Positions 46,172 through 54,025 of a DNA stretch of 64,000 nt are shown here, in pieces. The translations under genes and the position numbers were made by a program. The notes under the pieces are model-generated. The model worked only from the letters and a program-made list of their open reading frames with translations. It was not told the DNA's origin and made no database searches. How positions within the stretch are numbered: position 1 is the first letter of the stretch; each line of letters opens with the position of its first letter. This DNA is from Treponema sp. (GTDB lineage: Bacteria > Spirochaetota > Spirochaetia > Treponematales > Treponemataceae): NCBI GenBank assembly GCA_014804005.1, contig JAAVAP010000013.1, positions 200,302-264,301 on the forward strand. Direction: 5' to 3'.

Positions 46172-46679
46172 ACAAACCTCCTAATGATTTCAGAAATGAC
46201 TTCAAGTTGCACTTGAAGTGTCCAAACGGTTTCGGAAGCGGCTTCAAGTGGCACTTGAAGCGTCCAAACGGTTTCGGAAATGACTTCAAGTTGCACTTGA
46301 TGTGTCCAAACAGTTTCAGAAGTGAGTTCAAGTGGCACTTGAAGTGTCCAAACGGTTTCGGAAGTGGCTTCAACTCGCAGTTGAAGTGTCCAAACGGTTT
46401 CAGAAGTGAGTTCAAGTCGCACTTGAAGTGTCCAAATAGTTTCAGAAGTGAGTTCAAGTTGCGGTTTGAGGCATGTTTGTGTCGCAGGACAAAGCCCTGC
46501 TTACCGAGTTTTGTACGCAAGCTCTTGGCTTGCTGCCAAAACTCGCCATGATTAGCATTTTGCGTGCCAAAGTCGTGATTTCTACATGCAGAAAGTGTCG
46601 CGCTGCGTAGAAATGCTATATCATTGTATAGGGGGGGGGTAGTCGTTATCGTGTTTTTAAGTTCCGCACATTTCCGCAT
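46065..46679 (-). CDS. Cassette C leader ORF, long (open) form with C9 tract and 14-residue repeats
   Basis: The 204-codon frame starts six bases after a TATAAT box (predicted leaderless) with MRKCAELKNTITTTPPLYND. Nine C residues (plus-strand G at 46631-46639) lie in codons 14-17. The frame passes through seven exact 42-base repeats, read as 14-residue units such as HLKPLPKPFGHFKC, and ends 107 bases inside the DUF6261 gene. One more or one fewer C would end the peptide within eight codons of the tract (TTPPPIQ-stop or TTPPYTMI-stop). Whether the product is functional or only its translation matters is unknown. Confidence 0.5.
   Translation of the reverse strand: MRKCAELKNTITTTPPLYNDIAFLRSATLSACRNHDFGTQNANHGEFWQQAKSLRTKLGKQGFVLRHKHASNRNLNSLLKLFGHFKCDLNSLLKPFGHFNCELKPLPKPFGHFKCHLNSLLKLFGHIKCNLKSFPKPFGRFKCHLKPLPKPFGHFKCNLKSFLKSLGGLYEGNPVDFLGEHEQCGAFHVRVQHGGQGGEGRGRR
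46201..46474 (-). repeat. Seven 42-bp palindromic tandem repeats, cassette C
   Basis: Units start with TTCAAG at 46201, 46243, 46285, 46327, 46369, 46411 and 46453, exactly 42 bases apart. Each has a palindrome such as CTTCAAGTG-G-CACTTGAAG plus a spacer TGTCCAAACGGTTTCGGAAG. Arms change together: ACTTCAAGT/ACTTGAAGT in unit 1, GCTTCAAGT/ACTTGAAGC in unit 2, CTTCAACT/AGTTGAAG in unit 5. The array ends 30 bases before the DUF6261 ATG. Confidence 0.9.
46482..46547 (+). repeat. CGAGTTT multi-hairpin element, copy 3
   Basis: GCAGGAC-AAA-GCCCTGC (46484-46500) is followed by CGAGTTTTG (46505-46513) and CAAAACTCG (46537-46545), enclosing GCAAGC-TCTTG-GCTTGC. It lies between the C9 tract and the 42-bp array of cassette C. 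Confidence 0.75.
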
Positions 46680-46809: not shown

Positions 46810-47544
46810 TCAGAGGAAGTCCACGTAGTCCAAGACCGAAAATTCGAACACGTCGCACAGAAGCCCGTATTCGTTTTTGAATTCGACTTTGACCACGCCG
46901 TCCGCCTCGCACACGAACGCGCTCACCTGCCATTCGGGCAGAATCTGGTTTTTGAATTCGGCGCGGAGCGATTTCACGTCGTAGTTCTCTAGCCCGCAGA
47001 TTTCAAGGGCTTTCTCTATCAGGCGGACGTTGTTCGCGTGTCCGTTCAGGTCGAGCAGGTGCTCGCTTATCCTGAAAGTCTGCGCCAATGAAAAAGGGCT
47101 TGCCTTGGAGACGGCTATCCTTCTTCCCCGGAATTCGTGCCGGCTCTTTTCGCCGAAATCCTCGCGCGGCCAGATGCTTTCGTCCTGAATTTCCACGGTG
47201 GATTCCTCGATGTTGTAGTATGCGAGCATGTCCTCCGCGATGGCGAGGAGGTTTCCGTCCTCGTCGCACATCTTGATTTCCATATAGACGAGAGACTGCC
47301 TCACTTCGGTGATGTATGTGGAAAGCTCGACGCGCTGGGTTACGCGCGGCATTTTTATCACGTCTATCTGCCAGCTCAGGCGGAACCAAGTGCAGCCGCT
47401 TTTCGCCGTGTATTCTTCGCCGAGGTTCTTGTCGGCGACGTAGACGAAAATCAAGTCTTGGAAGAGGCGCAGGAGGCCGCCCATCGTGAGGAAGCCGGAC
47501 TTGTCCACCTCGCTGAACCTTATTCGGGTTGTGCGCTTGTACAT
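46810..47544 (-). CDS. Acyl-ACP thioesterase (FatA/FatB-like double hotdog)
   Basis: The 244-residue product has two hotdog domains: RTTRIRFSEVDKSGFLTMGG with CTWFRLSWQIDVIKMPR in the first, and the catalytic-type LNGHANNVRLIEKAL in the second, matching the N-x-H-x-N-N motif of plant and bacterial acyl-ACP thioesterases. It would release free acids from ACP. It is the last gene of the fatty-acid/polyketide-like cluster. The start at 47544 is preceded by GGAGG at a somewhat long distance. A GGGGC/GCCCC hairpin at 46755-46768 may end the transcript. Confidence 0.85.
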   Translation of the reverse strand: MYKRTTRIRFSEVDKSGFLTMGGLLRLFQDLIFVYVADKNLGEEYTAKSGCTWFRLSWQIDVIKMPRVTQRVELSTYITEVRQSLVYMEIKMCDEDGNLLAIAEDMLAYYNIEESTVEIQDESIWPREDFGEKSRHEFRGRRIAVSKASPFSLAQTFRISEHLLDLNGHANNVRLIEKALEICGLENYDVKSLRAEFKNQILPEWQVSAFVCEADGVVKVEFKNEYGLLCDVFEFSVLDYVDFL

Positions 47545-47615
47545 TTCTTTCCGTCCTCCTTGCAAATCAGGTTTTTAAAGTTCGGGATTCGGCCGCGCCG
47601 AACAGCCGCGCCGTT

Positions 47616-48383
47616 TTATTTTTCGGTTTCGGCATCGGGACTTTTTTTGCCCGCCGCGCGCTCGGTCTTCCAAAACAAGTCCATGAGCAGCTTGTAGTGC
47701 CGCTGCGAGAACGGTCCTTCGCGAAGTTTCGCGATTGTCTCTTCGGAAATCTTTTCGGTGCGGGCAAGTTCGCGTCCCGCCTCCACGAATTTTTCGAGGA
47801 ATTCTTCAAGCCGCTCGAAAAGCTGTTCGTTCGCGAAGGAGCGGCCTTGCGGACAAAAAAGCGGATAGTAGTTTTCCCTTCCGCAGATCATGTCGAACTG
47901 CGAGAGCAGCGAGTCGTAGATCAAGTCCGCCTGCGAGTATCCGCAAGTGGAAATTATGATGAATTTCTTTCCGGTGAGTCCGCCACGGATTCCGTGGAAA
48001 GGCTTTCCCACGACAGGGGCTTGGCCTTCATAAGTGCACAGCATCGAGACCATGCGGTCGGTGAAGACTTTCATCGTTCCCGGCATCCCGAAAATGTAAA
48101 GCGGAAAACTTTCGATTACGATGTCTGCCGCGCTCACTTTTTCCTTGATTCTCGGAATGTCGTCGCCCTTTATGACGCATTCGCCTTCGGTGCGCCCCCA
48201 GCATGAAAGGCAGCCTTTGCACGGCAGGATTTTGCAGTCGTCGATGTCGAGCCATTCGGTTTGGCACGGGCGGATTTCCTCGATGCCTTGGAGGAATTTT
48301 TTCGTGACACGCGAGGTGCTCGACCTTTCTTTTTGGGGGCTTCCGCTTATGACGAGGATTTTTAGTTCGCGCTCTTTTTCCAT
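47616..48383 (-). CDS. NAD(P)H-dependent flavodoxin-like oxidoreductase
   Basis: The 255-residue flavoprotein of the NADPH-dependent FMN reductase / iron-sulfur flavoprotein family has ILVISGSPQKERSSTSRVTK (FMN phosphate loop), the cysteine-rich CKGCLSCWGRTEGEC and SFPLYIFGMPGTMKVFTDR. The C-terminal extension of ~70 residues is unusual for small reductases. The substrate is unknown; its place between fabZ and the thioesterase suggests an acyl or polyene redox step. The start is two bases after the fabZ stop. Confidence 0.8.
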   Translation of the reverse strand: MEKERELKILVISGSPQKERSSTSRVTKKFLQGIEEIRPCQTEWLDIDDCKILPCKGCLSCWGRTEGECVIKGDDIPRIKEKVSAADIVIESFPLYIFGMPGTMKVFTDRMVSMLCTYEGQAPVVGKPFHGIRGGLTGKKFIIISTCGYSQADLIYDSLLSQFDMICGRENYYPLFCPQGRSFANEQLFERLEEFLEKFVEAGRELARTEKISEETIAKLREGPFSQRHYKLLMDLFWKTERAAGKKSPDAETEK

Positions 48384-48385
48384 AG

Positions 48386-48823
48386 TTATCCGATTTGCTC
48401 TTTTGGAATCTTCGTGAAAATCATCGAGCCTTTCGCCTTGACTTCGCCGTCGCATTTCAATGTCGCGTCGAAGTAGGTGAGCGTGCCGCCCGACTTGGTC
48501 TTCTTCGCTTCGATTTCGAGGACGTCGCCGGGAATCACGGGCTTGAGGAATTTGAACTCGCTCACTTTCAGCAGCATGTGGACAAAGTTTTCGTCCACGC
48601 CGTCATCGTCCACCACGAGCGAGCAGAGCTGCGCCGCGCTTTCGATGAGGAGTACCCCTGGCATTATCGGCATTCCCGGAAAATGCCCCGCAAAGTGCGG
48701 CTCGTTCACGCTCACGCATTTTATTCCGCGCGCGCTTTCGCCCGGCACTACTTCAAGAACCTTGTCGATCATTTGGAAGGGCGGACGTTGCGCGATCCGC
48801 TTTTGGATTTCATAGACGTTCAT
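48386..48823 (-). CDS. fabZ: 3-hydroxyacyl-ACP dehydratase, FabZ type
   Basis: The 145-residue single-hotdog dehydratase has RPPFQMIDKVLEVVPGE, the catalytic histidine in HFAGHFPGMPIMPGVLLIES and the following AAQLCSLV. GGAG precedes the ATG. It removes water from 3-hydroxyacyl-ACP. Flanked by fabG upstream and a flavoprotein downstream. Confidence 0.93.
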   Translation of the reverse strand: MNVYEIQKRIAQRPPFQMIDKVLEVVPGESARGIKCVSVNEPHFAGHFPGMPIMPGVLLIESAAQLCSLVVDDDGVDENFVHMLLKVSEFKFLKPVIPGDVLEIEAKKTKSGGTLTYFDATLKCDGEVKAKGSMIFTKIPKEQIG

Positions 48824-48872: not shown

Positions 48873-49607
48873 TCAAAGGCTCAATCCGCCGTCGAGCACG
48901 ATTGTCTGCCCGGTTATGTAGGAAGCGGCGTCGCTCGCCAAAAACGAAACGAGGCTTGCGACTTCCTCAACATCCGCGAAACGCTTTAGCGGAACGTTCT
49001 TCAAATATTCTTCGCGCTTTTCGGGCGGAAGCTGTTCCACCATTTCCGTGAGCACGAATCCCGGGGCGACGGCGTTCACGCGGATGTTCTTTCGCGCTAG
49101 CTCCACGGCCATTGTTTGAGTGAGCGAGTTCACCGCGCCCTTTGTCGCGCTGTAGACGCATTGACCTGCCAAAGCCATTTTGCTTGAAACCGAAGACATA
49201 TTTATTATAACACCCGATTTCTGCGAGAACATTTTGACCGCCGCCTGCTGCGCGCAGTAGAAGTAGCCCTTGACGTTGAGGTCGAGGCACTTGTCGAGCG
49301 TGTCGGGATTGAGCATCATGAGATATTCGTCGCGGACGATTCCCGCGTTGTTTACGAGGACATCCACGGTCTTGTATTTTTCGCAAATTACGCGGAACAT
49401 TTCTTTCACTTGGTTCAAGTCCGAAACGTCCGCCTTGCATGCGAAAGCATCGCCGCCTTCGCCCTTGATTTGTTCGACCACGGACATTGCCTCTTTGTCC
49501 GAGCGGCTGTAGTTTACGACGACCGTCATTCCGTCGCGAGCCAGCCGAATCGCGCAAGCGCGTCCTATTCCCTTTGAGGCTCCGGTTACCAAAGCAATTT
49601 TCGCCAT
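48873..49607 (-). CDS. fabG: 3-oxoacyl-ACP reductase
   Basis: The 244-residue short-chain dehydrogenase has the NADPH loop TGASKGIGRACA, NNAGIV, and the catalytic Ser-Tyr-Lys in NMSSVSSKM and VYSATKGAV. The C-terminal SFLASDAASYITGQTIVLDG is typical for FabG. AGGAG precedes the ATG. It reduces 3-oxoacyl-ACP in the same pathway as the neighbouring FabZ and ketosynthase. Confidence 0.94.
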   Translation of the reverse strand: MAKIALVTGASKGIGRACAIRLARDGMTVVVNYSRSDKEAMSVVEQIKGEGGDAFACKADVSDLNQVKEMFRVICEKYKTVDVLVNNAGIVRDEYLMMLNPDTLDKCLDLNVKGYFYCAQQAAVKMFSQKSGVIINMSSVSSKMALAGQCVYSATKGAVNSLTQTMAVELARKNIRVNAVAPGFVLTEMVEQLPPEKREEYLKNVPLKRFADVEEVASLVSFLASDAASYITGQTIVLDGGLSL

Positions 49608-49750: not shown

Positions 49751-51109
49751 CTATCGGATTTCCTTGATCGAATATCTTTTGGAAGGGCGCATGATGAGCG
49801 TCACGAGCAGAATCGCGATCGCGGTAATCGCGAGGCTTATCGGATATACCGTCATTATCGTTATGAAAGTCCGCGACTTTTGGAAGACTGTGAAAATCCA
49901 TGCGAGGCGCACTCCGCAAATTCCTGCCATCGCGCACAAAGCTGGCACGAGCGACGCTCCCCAGCCTCGCAAATATCCCGAAAGGACTTCCTGCGCGAAA
50001 CTGAATATGTATCCCGTGAAAAGGAATTTCAGCCTGATTAGCCCGATTTCAATCACGCCGCTGTCGCGGTTGAATATCGCCAAAAGTGTCCGCGAGAAAA
50101 TCAGGATGAGCGAGCATGAAATTGCCATGGCTGCCGCGCATTGCGCAAGGCAAATCTTCAGCGTGGAAAGGCAGCGTTCGTTTTTTCCCGCGCCGAAATT
50201 CTGCCCGACGAACGTGGAGCATGCCTGCCCGAACGAGTTTATGACATAGTACGAAAGGATTTCCAAATTGAACGCGGAGGCAGAGCCTGCTATTACGACC
50301 GCGCCCAGCGTGTTCATCGCGGATTGGATTATTATGTTCGCGAACGAGAATATCATGCTTTGCACGCCGGACGGCACTCCGATTCTCAGAATTTCCGAAA
50401 GGATTTTCGCGTCGAATTTAAGCTTTTTTACTGTTATCTTGATTTGCGAATCCGCGCGCAAAAGCGCCACGAAAAGGATTGTCGCGCTCACAAGGTTCGA
50501 GACCGCAGTCGCCGTCGCCACTCCGTCCACGTCCATTCCAAGCGCGCGCACGAAAAAAAGATTCAGCGCAACGTTCACCACGCCGGAAATCGTGAGTGCC
50601 GCCAAAGGCTTGCGCGTGTCGCCAGTGCTCCTGAAAATCGCGGCTTCGAAATTGTAGAGCAGAATCACGGGCATTCCGAGAAAGTATATGCGCAGGTATT
50701 TTTCCGCCGCGCCCGATATTTCGCTTGGAACGGAAAGCGCGAGGACTATCTTTCCTGCGAAAATCTCGCCGAGCGCGAGCAGCAAAAATCCGCCTGCCAA
50801 AGCAACCAGCACAGAGGAATGCACCGCCCTTGAAACGCCCTGCGCGTCCTTTTTTCCGATCAGGCGCGCCATGACAACGTTGCTTCCGAGCGAGATTCCG
50901 ACGAAGAAATTCACCATGAGGCCGATGACAGGTCCGTTCGCTCCCACGGCTGCCTGTGCGTTCGTTCCGCAATATTGGCCGACGACGGCGATGTCCGCCG
51001 CGTTGAAAAGCTGCTGCAGGATTCCCGTGGCGGCGAGGAGAAGCGCGTATTTCAATATTTTTCCGCCGAGCGGACCGCTCGTCATTTCAATTTGGCCGTT
51101 CAGTTTCAT
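49751..51109 (-). CDS. MATE-family multidrug/product exporter
   Basis: The 452-residue, 12-helix MATE protein has GKILKYALLLAATGILQQLF, ADIAVVGQYCG, the second-half counterpart IGVPSGVQSMIFSFANIIIQ and a final basic tail. It uses Na+ or H+ gradients for export. Its position inside the biosynthetic cluster suggests it could export the acyl product, but general drug efflux is equally possible. The start at 51109 has GGGGAG upstream. Confidence 0.9.
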   Translation of the reverse strand: MKLNGQIEMTSGPLGGKILKYALLLAATGILQQLFNAADIAVVGQYCGTNAQAAVGANGPVIGLMVNFFVGISLGSNVVMARLIGKKDAQGVSRAVHSSVLVALAGGFLLLALGEIFAGKIVLALSVPSEISGAAEKYLRIYFLGMPVILLYNFEAAIFRSTGDTRKPLAALTISGVVNVALNLFFVRALGMDVDGVATATAVSNLVSATILFVALLRADSQIKITVKKLKFDAKILSEILRIGVPSGVQSMIFSFANIIIQSAMNTLGAVVIAGSASAFNLEILSYYVINSFGQACSTFVGQNFGAGKNERCLSTLKICLAQCAAAMAISCSLILIFSRTLLAIFNRDSGVIEIGLIRLKFLFTGYIFSFAQEVLSGYLRGWGASLVPALCAMAGICGVRLAWIFTVFQKSRTFITIMTVYPISLAITAIAILLVTLIMRPSKRYSIKEIR

Positions 51110-51120
51110 AGCGCTCCCCA

Positions 51121-51155
51121 AAAAAGAAAACCGGACTTCAAACGAAGTCCGGTTT
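51121..51155 (-). terminator. Terminator after tRNA-Val
   Basis: A perfect 12-bp stem AAACCGGACTTC/GAAGTCCGGTTT (51128-51155) is followed on the minus strand by a T-rich tail. Confidence 0.8.
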
Positions 51156-51156
51156 G

Positions 51157-51230
51157 TGGGCGGTGAGAGGATCGAACTCCCGACATTCTGGGTGTAAACC
51201 AGACGCTCGTACCAGCTGAGCTAACCGCCC
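51157..51230 (-). tRNA. tRNA-Val (TAC anticodon)
   Basis: The acceptor GGGCGGT pairs with ACCGCCC, discriminator A. The anticodon stem CTGG/CCAG encloses TTTACAC with anticodon TAC. The T-arm contains TTCGATC. CCA is not encoded. It lies between the ketosynthase and MATE genes on the same strand. Confidence 0.95.
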
Positions 51231-51324
51231 GAAGTGTTTCCTAGAATATCAAAATCGCAAAAAAATGTCAATATGAAAAACGAAATTTTTGCATTCGCGC
51301 TCTTTCTGAAATCCGCGTTCGGAA

Positions 51325-53739
51325 CTACGCTTTTTGGACGACGACTGCCGTGTATGAGCCGCCGAAGCCGTAGGAAGTTACGAGGATGTTCCTCAAGTCC
51401 TTGGTTTCCGCAGCCTTTTTAGACACCGCGCCGCCATCGCAGAAATATGCTTTTCCGCGCAATTCGTACTTTTGTGAAAGAAGCAGAGCCGCGTGTGCGC
51501 ATGAAAGAGCCGCGCTTGCAGCCCTTCCTTCGCCCGTCGTGTCTTTCACCGAATAGAGCGGGATTGACGAAAGCCTTTCGCCGAACAGTTTTCTATACGC
51601 GTTGATTTCAAGGCTGTCCGTTGAACGGCATCCGTTTCCGAATCCGACTATCGCGTCGATTTCGTCCGCAGAAATTCCGCCGTCCTGCAACGCGCGTTCC
51701 ACCGCCTCGATGAGGGCATCGCCCGAACCTTCGATTGTGTCGAGGGGAACGCTTTTGTGCGCCATTCCATAGCCTGCGAGAACCGCGTAAGATTTCGCGC
51801 CGCGCGCCTTCGCGCTTTCTTCGGTTTCGAGGATTATGGAAGTGCTTCCGTCGCCAAGCGAAAATCCGCAGGATTTCGATTCGCCGCCGATGCCTGAATA
51901 GGGAGTCGCGTGTTTTTCCGAAATCATTCCGAGCTTTTCGTAGAGTTCGGTCATCGTGGCGGAATTCTCGTCGTTGCCCGTGGCCATTATGATTCGGCTT
52001 TTTTTCTGCCGCAATTCCTCCGCCGCGTAAGCCACGCTTTGAAGACCCGCCTGCGCTCCGTTAGTGATTGTGGCGGTGTAGCCCTTTATTCCCGAGCAGA
52101 TTGAAAGGTAGCCGCCAGCCGCGTTGTAGACTGTGTGCGGAAATTTGAACGCGCTTCCGTAGAAGTTGCCGCGCTCGACAATCGTCTGCTGGAATTCGCA
52201 GATCGTTGAAAGCGGACCGTCCGCAGTTCCCACGATGAGGCCGATGTCCACGGCGTTCTCGTCGTTGACTTCAAGCCCGGCATCCCGAAGTGCTTTCATT
52301 CCGCTCACTGCCTGGATTTGGCTGAACTTGTCTAGTTTTCTATAAAAAGCCATCTTCAGTCCAAGCTCGTCGAACTCGGGAATCTCGATTTTTGCCTGGG
52401 TGGAAACGCCTTCGGGCTGAATCTCATCGTTGAATTTCTTCACGTAGTTTTCGATTCCGTTTCCGCAGGACGAGACAATCCCAAGTCCCGTGATGTGGAT
52501 TTTTCCGGCGTCGCGTTCCGCGCGGACGTCGCCCGCCTTTTCGGAAAAGATTATGCTCGCGTTGTTTCCGCCGAACGCGAAAGAATTGCTCATTACGGTT
52601 TGGAGAGCCTTTTCCTTTGAATTGTTCGGCATGAAGTCGATTTTTCCCGCGCGTTCGGAAAGCGTCCGCAAGTCTTCCTCGGAATATCCGATTGTCGCAG
52701 GGACTTTGTTCTGCGTGAGTGCCTTTATCGAAAAGACCGCTTCGATGGAGCCAGCCGCGCCGAGGCAGTGACCGACCATCGCCTTGGTTGAACTCACGGA
52801 AAGCGAGTCGTTTTTGCCTTCGAAAATCGTGCGGACGGAAAGGAATTCCGCCATGTCGTTTTTGGCAGTGCCCGTGCCGTGTCCGTTTATGTAGCCGATC
52901 TCGCCTTCGCTCGCTCCCGATGATTTGAGGGCGCGGCGGATTGCGTTCATCTGGCCTTCGCCGTCGTCGCGAGGGGCTGTGATGTGGAACGCGTCGCTTG
53001 TGACTCCGCTTCCGAGGACTTCGCAATAGATTTTCGCGCCGCGCTCCTTCGCGTGCTCGTAGGACTCGACCACAAGGACTCCGCTACCTTCGCCGAGCGT
53101 GATTCCGTCGCAATGGTTGAAAGGCGAGCATCCGTTTTCGGAGAGCGCGTGCAGAGAGAGGAATCCCGCGTATGGAACGGACGTGAACGAATCCGAGCCG
53201 CCCGCGATTACCGCGTCCGCCTTTCCCGCGCGAATCAAGTCCGCGGCGTATGCGATGCTGATCGTTCCTGCAGCGCATGCGTTTCCTATGTTCGTGACGA
53301 TGCCGCGCGCTCCGGTGTAGGCCGCGACTTCGTTCGCGATAGGACCTATCGGCATTTTGAGGATGTCCTCTTTGGGCTTTTCGTTCCTGTAATAGTGCTC
53401 GACGCTCGCGCCGCCGCCGACGCAGCTTCCGATGATGACGGAAACTCGGCTTCCTTCTTTCTGTATTTCGTCAGGAAGGAATTTCGCGTCGTTCAGGGCC
53501 TCTTTGACGGCCTTCATGCAGAGTTTCGTGGCGCGATCCGCGTTTTCGGGCGAATCCAAATCCGCGCATTCGACTTCGGCGGCGAGTTTCGCATAGCATT
53601 TTTCCGTGTCCACTGTGGACGTAACCTTGATTCCGCTTTTTCCCTTGAGGCAGTTTTCCCAAGATTCTTCCACGCTGTTTCCGATGGCGCAAACAAGCCC
53701 CAGCCCGGTAATCACGCAACGGTTTTTGTCTTCTGTCAT
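51325..53739 (-). CDS. Ketosynthase fused to a catalytically dead ketosynthase (KS-CLF-like)
   Basis: The 804-residue product consists of two FabF-type domains. Residues ~1-405 have the full Cys-His-His set: NIGNACAAGTIS, YINGHGTGTAKND and MVGHCLGAAG. Residues ~410-804 align with them, but the cysteine position reads NGAQAGLQS (Ala, with an adjacent Gln), the first histidine region GFGNGCRSTD (Asn) and the second KDTTGEGRAA (Glu). This is the architecture of a KS-alpha/chain-length-factor pair in one chain. It should elongate acyl-ACP in the cluster with the adjacent ACP. GGGGA precedes the ATG. Confidence 0.9.
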   Translation of the reverse strand: MTEDKNRCVITGLGLVCAIGNSVEESWENCLKGKSGIKVTSTVDTEKCYAKLAAEVECADLDSPENADRATKLCMKAVKEALNDAKFLPDEIQKEGSRVSVIIGSCVGGGASVEHYYRNEKPKEDILKMPIGPIANEVAAYTGARGIVTNIGNACAAGTISIAYAADLIRAGKADAVIAGGSDSFTSVPYAGFLSLHALSENGCSPFNHCDGITLGEGSGVLVVESYEHAKERGAKIYCEVLGSGVTSDAFHITAPRDDGEGQMNAIRRALKSSGASEGEIGYINGHGTGTAKNDMAEFLSVRTIFEGKNDSLSVSSTKAMVGHCLGAAGSIEAVFSIKALTQNKVPATIGYSEEDLRTLSERAGKIDFMPNNSKEKALQTVMSNSFAFGGNNASIIFSEKAGDVRAERDAGKIHITGLGIVSSCGNGIENYVKKFNDEIQPEGVSTQAKIEIPEFDELGLKMAFYRKLDKFSQIQAVSGMKALRDAGLEVNDENAVDIGLIVGTADGPLSTICEFQQTIVERGNFYGSAFKFPHTVYNAAGGYLSICSGIKGYTATITNGAQAGLQSVAYAAEELRQKKSRIIMATGNDENSATMTELYEKLGMISEKHATPYSGIGGESKSCGFSLGDGSTSIILETEESAKARGAKSYAVLAGYGMAHKSVPLDTIEGSGDALIEAVERALQDGGISADEIDAIVGFGNGCRSTDSLEINAYRKLFGERLSSIPLYSVKDTTGEGRAASAALSCAHAALLLSQKYELRGKAYFCDGGAVSKKAAETKDLRNILVTSYGFGGSYTAVVVQKA

Positions 53740-53779: not shown

Positions 53780-54025
53780 CTATTTGAGGTGTTCCTCGAC
53801 GTACTTGGTGAGGCTCGCAACGTTGAAAAAGTGCTCCTTGCCCACGCCCGTCATCGAAACGCCGAATTCGCGGTCGATTCCCGCGATGATTTCAAGCGAG
53901 TCGATTGAATCCAGCCCGATGTCGCCGCCGAAAAGTTCGGCTTCGTCGGTGAGCATGTCCGCGTCGATTCCTAAATTCTGCGTGAGGATGTCCTTGATTT
54001 TCGCCGAAATTTCTGATTTTTCCAT
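53780..54025 (-). CDS. Acyl carrier protein of the cluster
   Basis: The 81-residue acidic protein has the phosphopantetheine-attachment serine in GGDIGLDSIDSLEIIAGI, a four-helix ACP pattern and C-terminal VASLTKYVEEHL. The GGDIG segment before LDS is more like carrier proteins of polyketide or dedicated pathways than housekeeping AcpP. AGGAG precedes the ATG. First gene of the cluster; the fused ketosynthase follows 40 bases later. Confidence 0.9.
   Translation of the reverse strand: MEKSEISAKIKDILTQNLGIDADMLTDEAELFGGDIGLDSIDSLEIIAGIDREFGVSMTGVGKEHFFNVASLTKYVEEHLK

Follow-up and report, generated by a model that had tools for sequence, protein, structure and literature searches.

A gene of a Treponema species raises the question of what a condensing enzyme does with a second ketosynthase fold, joined to it in one chain, that has lost its catalytic residues. 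Type II pairs of a ketosynthase (KS) and a chain-length factor (CLF) are textbook knowledge, and chain-length control by KS-CLF is usually studied in two-protein polyketide synthases or in giant PUFA synthases. The gene lies within the window, by which we mean the whole stretch of 64,000 nucleotides analyzed here, and all features located in it below are on the minus strand.

The open reading frame (53739..51325) starts with an ATG, with AGGGG upstream, and encodes a fused ketosynthase/chain-length-factor-like protein of 804 aa (51325..53739), annotated from Pfam, profiles, alignment, AlphaFold2, and Foldseek. Pfam detects two ketosynthase folds in this protein, and each half matches ketosynthase models along its entire length. 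Domain 1 spans about residues 1–405 (53739..52525) and domain 2 residues ~409–804 (52515..51328); the two are 24% identical. The NCBIfam fabF model TIGR03150 gives a whole-protein score of 515 bits against a cut-off of 493.75, with the best stretch in domain 1. Domain 2 alone still has fabF as its best match, at 168 bits, far under the cut-off.

Domain 1 contains an intact, FabF-like triad formed by Cys155 (NACAAG), His287 (HGTGT), and His324 (GHCLGAAG), as a preliminary description of the sequence had stated. In domain 2, Ala562, followed by Gln563, occupies the Cys site, and Glu737 the second-His site. The same description had read these positions as Ala (next to Gln), Asn, and Glu. Its first and last assignments stand, whereas Asn702 is displaced by Phe700, two residues earlier, which both an L-INS-i alignment and the FabF profile alignment place at the first-His site. 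No histidine is found at this site with either assignment.

The same pattern is observed in an alignment of 71 fused proteins. In domain 1, the Cys and the first His are present in 71/71 and the second His in 70, the remaining sequence having an X. In domain 2, no protein has Cys at the Cys site, where A, P, S, V, N, I, T, or F is found instead, and E fills position 737 in 66 proteins, D in 3, and N in 2, bearing out the claim that the second half lacks all three catalytic residues. The analysis confirms that the 804-aa protein consists of an intact FabF-like ketosynthase and a full-length, triad-less ketosynthase fold in a single chain.

A domain whose triad is gone and whose evolution outpaces that of its partner could be a decaying duplicate, or the product of a chance or assembly fusion of neighboring FabF genes. 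The search for further single-chain examples that the preliminary description had called for speaks to this point. A domain 2 profile matched 21 of 200 same-genus genomes, every match being in an open frame of about 790–850 aa. Furthermore, a scan of one genome per species yielded about 50 fused homologs at 46% identity or more, on contigs titled Treponema, Fibrobacter, Lachnospiraceae, Oscillospiraceae, Ruminococcus (including R. bromii 5AMG), Erysipelotrichaceae, Acholeplasmatales, Anaeroplasma, and Saccharofermentans. One full-length homolog, WP_041688922.1, is 56.5% identical and located on a plasmid record of [Eubacterium] eligens (Lachnospira eligens) ATCC 27750. Split halves were absent among the loci where both halves were found, one of which (L126) carries ambiguous bases. 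The single open frame in independent assemblies rules out an assembly artifact or accidental fusion. Domain 2 also has conserved motifs, and the triad pattern kept across the 71 proteins indicates that the fusion is not due to chance. This explanation is already refuted by conservation, and we give it next to no credence.

The single-chain KS-CLF is therefore a family found in gut and rumen anaerobes of several phyla and not a spirochete oddity. The earlier view of this architecture as unusual, above all in a spirochete, is right in that the usual pairs are separate proteins, but it must yield to this distribution and to the precedent of the PfaC didomain, described below. At about 30% identity, more distant fusions are present in another genome of the order to which the window belongs and on contigs titled Blautia, Clostridia, and Nocardia tenerifensis. 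The N. tenerifensis contig (L129, 592-2943) encodes such a distant KS-CLF-like single chain, and its genome is rich in type I PKS. The fusion in another family of the window's order (L025, 5874-14707; genome G053) is accompanied by KR and DH genes, a protein that joins an ACP to a GCV_T-like domain, a thioesterase, a weak match to a FeeM-like N-acyltransferase, and a malonyltransferase, and the locus possibly encodes an N-acyl amino acid pathway.

We placed both domains in a tree of 60 rows (LG+C20) that includes three Streptomyces CLFs and no PfaC sequence. In the close family, the domain 1 clade and the domain 2 clade each have support of 100/99. The preliminary description had named the grouping of domain 2 with active FabF proteins as the outcome that would overturn its reading; constraining domain 2 to this position is rejected (p-AU 0.005). 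Together with the residue survey of the 71 proteins, this test rules out that domain 2 is a misaligned active FabF. A position within the Streptomyces type II PKS CLF clade is likewise rejected (p-AU 0.008), in a comparison involving long branches and three CLF references. Domain 2 thus appears to form a clade of its own, apart from active FabF and Streptomyces CLF. We call it no more than a separate lineage because of the long branches, the few CLF references, and the composition of the tree with respect to PfaC.

An AlphaFold2 model obtained with 42 sequences (pLDDT 90.3) shows a KS-CLF-like pseudo-dimer, and its pTM of 0.94 indicates that the placement of the two domains relative to each other is predicted confidently. 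In a Foldseek search of the PDB with the whole chain, the best match is 6riw, the PfaC KS-CLF didomain (TM 0.79 on the query, 18% identity), showing that single-chain KS-CLF proteins already exist in PUFA synthases. In a match list for domain 1 only, the ishigamide KS ranks among the closest structures. The two chains of PDB 9S5H match both halves of the fused protein; a literature search gave no paper on this entry. Residues, phylogeny, and fold agree with the earlier proposal of a KS and an inactive KS-fold partner in a single chain.

A phenylalanine occupies the column of FabF V134, beside F133, in all 23 domain 2 sequences sampled, while the same column is variable in domain 1. The stretch SAFKFP around F533 of domain 2 is conserved. 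This invariant residue next to the F133 column fits a role of domain 2 in gating the acyl tunnel, a function that we infer from sequence.

Alternatively, domain 2 could be a second, unusual catalyst, such as a malonyl-ACP decarboxylase or an AmcG-like cyclization factor. Arg739 is invariant (71/71), the GExRA motif that surrounds it is conserved, and a Gln adjoins the Cys position in 44/71 fused proteins. A priming decarboxylase would be useful, since FabH is often undetected, and the KS partner in the Amc system has been named a cyclization factor (PMC10698177). Against such a function, the Cys position itself is highly variable and the Gln is not invariant. Two of the three Streptomyces CLFs have Gln at the Cys column, but in the fused proteins it lies one residue later, so that the likeness to the classic CLF Gln does not extend to its position. 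We consider a catalytic domain 2 improbable.

The fused gene is part of a cassette. Upstream is an acyl carrier protein of 81 aa, counted from an internal ATG (ACP; 53780..54025; PF00550), with the phosphopantetheine motif GLDSIDSLE; an ACP adjoins the fusion in nearly all homologous loci. Downstream are a FabG-like ketoreductase (KR; 48873..49607) that keeps the YSATK and GASKGIG motifs, and whose relatives, 66–73% identical, adjoin the fusion in most same-genus loci, and a FabZ-like 3-hydroxyacyl-ACP dehydratase (DH; 48386..48823; HFAGHFPGMPIMPGVLLIE). These are followed by a flavodoxin-fold oxidoreductase (47616..48383; PF02525/PF03358), the candidate pathway reductase, and an acyl-ACP thioesterase-like protein (46810..47565; PF01643/PF13279), the candidate for chain release. 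The CX2CX2CX7C motif of the flavodoxin-fold protein resembles that of iron-sulfur flavoproteins; several cassettes of Fibrobacter and Treponema lack this protein. A C run (taccccccccctata) is located downstream of the cassette at 46625-46645.

In the window, the cassette is interrupted by a tRNA-Val(TAC) (51156..51230), located between the fused gene and a MATE-family exporter (49751..51109), an inserted gene and putative pathway member. The MATE insertion was found only in the window and in a near-identical relative (L061/L078; the L078 contig is 97% identical). The tRNA is flanked by a promoter-like site (51271..51243) and a terminator-like hairpin (51155..51128) of its own, suggesting that the cassette is probably divided into two transcription units at this position. 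In most other same-genus loci, the order ACP-[KS-CLF]-KR-DH-(flavodoxin)-PlsC-patatin is contiguous, without tRNA and MATE.

At other loci, the genes for release or acyl transfer encode a PlsC-like acyltransferase, a patatin, PlsX, or LRAT. Often the cassette also includes FabD and AccD/AccA, as on the L. eligens plasmid; a carboxyltransferase may take the place of AccD/AccA, and PlsX may be present as well. An Anaeroplasma metagenome-assembled genome (MAG; locus L079) contains, in a row, ACP, KS-CLF, KR, DH, flavodoxin, BioY, AccB, AccC, AccD, AccA, FabD, and biotin ligase. No recognized enoyl reductase (ER) is present in the cassettes, and their annotated genes include neither a chain-activating ligase nor an ammonia lyase.

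In addition to the fusion, the window genome encodes two ordinary FabFs, one near FabG and a DH-like gene and the other close to FabV on contig C9, and an aryl-polyene-like KS pair (contig C24). The fusion is not one of the two normal FabFs, which are located on contigs C2 and C9. The C24 locus (L026, 10419-14204) contains KS, an ApeP-like DH (weak match), KR, and KS, and resembles an aryl polyene core, separate from the fusion. The presence of ordinary FabF and FabV suggests that the fusion is accessory in this organism.

In 14 genomes, by contrast with the window genome, no PF00109 ketosynthase other than the fusion was detected, although most of these are metagenome-assembled, with completeness not given, and absence is weak evidence for any one MAG and stronger for a whole genus. 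Among the 27 genomes of the genus around the Anaeroplasma MAG, 18 have the fusion alone, two the fusion and FabF, one FabF alone, one another KS alone, and five no KS, so that lipid scavenging is possible there. In some anaerobes, the fusion appears to be the only condensing enzyme of the FabB/FabF class, and hence is probably the main fatty-acid synthase. FabH (PF08541) went undetected in 10 of 13 genomes, namely the window genome and 9 of 12 others; the FabH-negative genomes include ones with ordinary FabF. None of FabI, FabK, and FabV was found in 9 of the 14 sole-KS genomes, where FabI was judged on weak matches, chiefly to the cassette KR. A reduced product would therefore need an unrecognized reductase in these nine genomes.

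The nature of the product defines the main rival explanation, in which the cassette, acting as a highly reducing type II PKS, produces a conjugated polyenoic acid, in the manner of the ishigamide or aryl-polyene pathways. MATE would export this product, or PlsC-like acyltransferases would attach it to lipids, and the flavodoxin protein would have another role. The polyene subgroup has been described as having KS-CLF, KR, and DH but no ER (PMC10698177). The window has KS-CLF, KR, DH, and ACP, the set expected of a highly reducing type II PKS, together with the flavodoxin protein as a candidate ER. The cassettes without a recognized ER and the structural match of domain 1 to the ishigamide KS also favor a polyene. 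On the other hand, in several genomes that have no other PF00109 KS, the fusion is grouped with genes for acetyl-CoA carboxylase, for biotin uptake and biotin ligase, or for PlsX, which fits a supply of membrane lipids better than a pigment. A polyene is also disfavored by the lack of both a chain-activating ligase and an ammonia lyase among the annotated genes of the cassettes. Whether the product is saturated or a polyene depends on enoyl reduction by the flavodoxin-like protein or an unrecognized enzyme. The sole-KS genomes favor a fatty acid, and the missing known ER keeps the polyene as a contender, if an unlikely one.

We therefore favor, with a probability of roughly 60%, the reading of the fused protein as a single-chain KS-CLF that carries out the condensations in a fatty-acid-synthase-like pathway. 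The protein would act as an intramolecular pseudo-heterodimer with domain 1 as the sole active site. The acyl chain would move from the dedicated ACP to Cys155 and then be condensed with malonyl-ACP. Domain 2, a catalytically dead FabF fold, would stand in for the second subunit of the FabF dimer, shape the acyl tunnel at the shared interface and so set the chain length, and perhaps aid priming. With ACP, KR, DH, and, where present, the Fe-S flavodoxin-like reductase, KS-CLF may constitute a self-contained, FabH-independent type II acyl-ACP assembly line; the FabH-independent priming, the identity of the ER, and the product are our inferences. Product would be released by the thioesterase in the window and handed over to PlsX/PlsC-type acyltransferases in the relatives. 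In this Treponema, the fusion may work beside FabF/FabV, with a specialized acyl chain as product.

More tentatively, and at less than even odds, these systems may represent a distinct fatty-acid synthesis, in which free-standing type II enzymes are arranged around a single-chain KS-CLF, with FabH-free priming and an Fe-S flavodoxin-like ER. It would be the sole housekeeping synthase in an Acholeplasmatales-like lineage and some Clostridia, and would have reached Treponema and Fibrobacter by horizontal transfer, serving there as an accessory lipid pathway.

Literature searches, with subscription journals largely outside their coverage, returned no description of a fused KS-CLF in gut bacteria or in lipid synthesis of Acholeplasma/Anaeroplasma. 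As far as these searches reach, the new elements are a family of free-standing, FabF-like KS-CLF proteins in a single chain, its occurrence across gut phyla, and its position as apparently the only KS of some bacteria. The single-chain KS-CLF architecture is not new, given PfaC. A compact protein of this kind, apparently the only elongating enzyme in some bacteria, would make the role of a dead subunit testable within 800 residues. It would also be relevant to the puzzling gut bacteria that show no detected FabH and, often, no known enoyl reductase. The fusion may underlie a kind of bacterial fatty-acid synthesis not described so far, and, if so, common gut and rumen organisms, including Lachnospira eligens, have an unrecognized lipid pathway.

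Compared with known systems, the fused protein shares with PfaC (6RIW) the order of an active KS and then a degenerate KS fold within a single chain. The PfaC KS-CLF performs the last elongations in PUFA synthases (PMC12895367). PfaC belongs to a large type I system with more domains, in which dehydratase domains follow KS-CLF in a pfa locus, whereas the fused protein ends after two FabF-like domains and has single-domain, free-standing type II enzymes as neighbors.

The KS-alpha/CLF pairs of type II PKS (actinorhodin, 1TQY; ishigamide, 6KXD) similarly combine a catalytic KS with a triad-less KS-fold partner, with ACP, KR, and DH nearby, but they are two separate proteins, and domain 2 differs from the Streptomyces CLFs in its clade and in the offset of its Gln. 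The aryl polyene ApeO/ApeC system also has a KS with a dead partner, KR, DH, ACP, and a PlsC-like acyltransferase. ApeC of E. coli CFT073, however, is separate and short (240 aa); domain 2 is not an ApeC, being fused, full length (about 390 aa), and not accompanied by aryl-polyene genes. The comparison with KS/CLF systems made in the preliminary description is thus apt for the dead KS-fold partner and fails for membership of the Streptomyces CLF clade and for likeness to E. coli ApeC.

AmcF-AmcG of the cispentacin pathway is likewise a heterodimeric KS with a motif-less partner, and the fused protein scores 302 bits with the AmcF model, against a cut-off of 325. AmcF and AmcG are separate proteins that perform one elongation and a cyclization from a 2-oxoglutaryl starter, and AmcG is without some of the CLF secondary structure (PMC10698177). 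FabF is the closest sequence family of both halves, but it is a homodimer with two active sites, whereas in the fused protein one site has been lost and the two subunits are joined.
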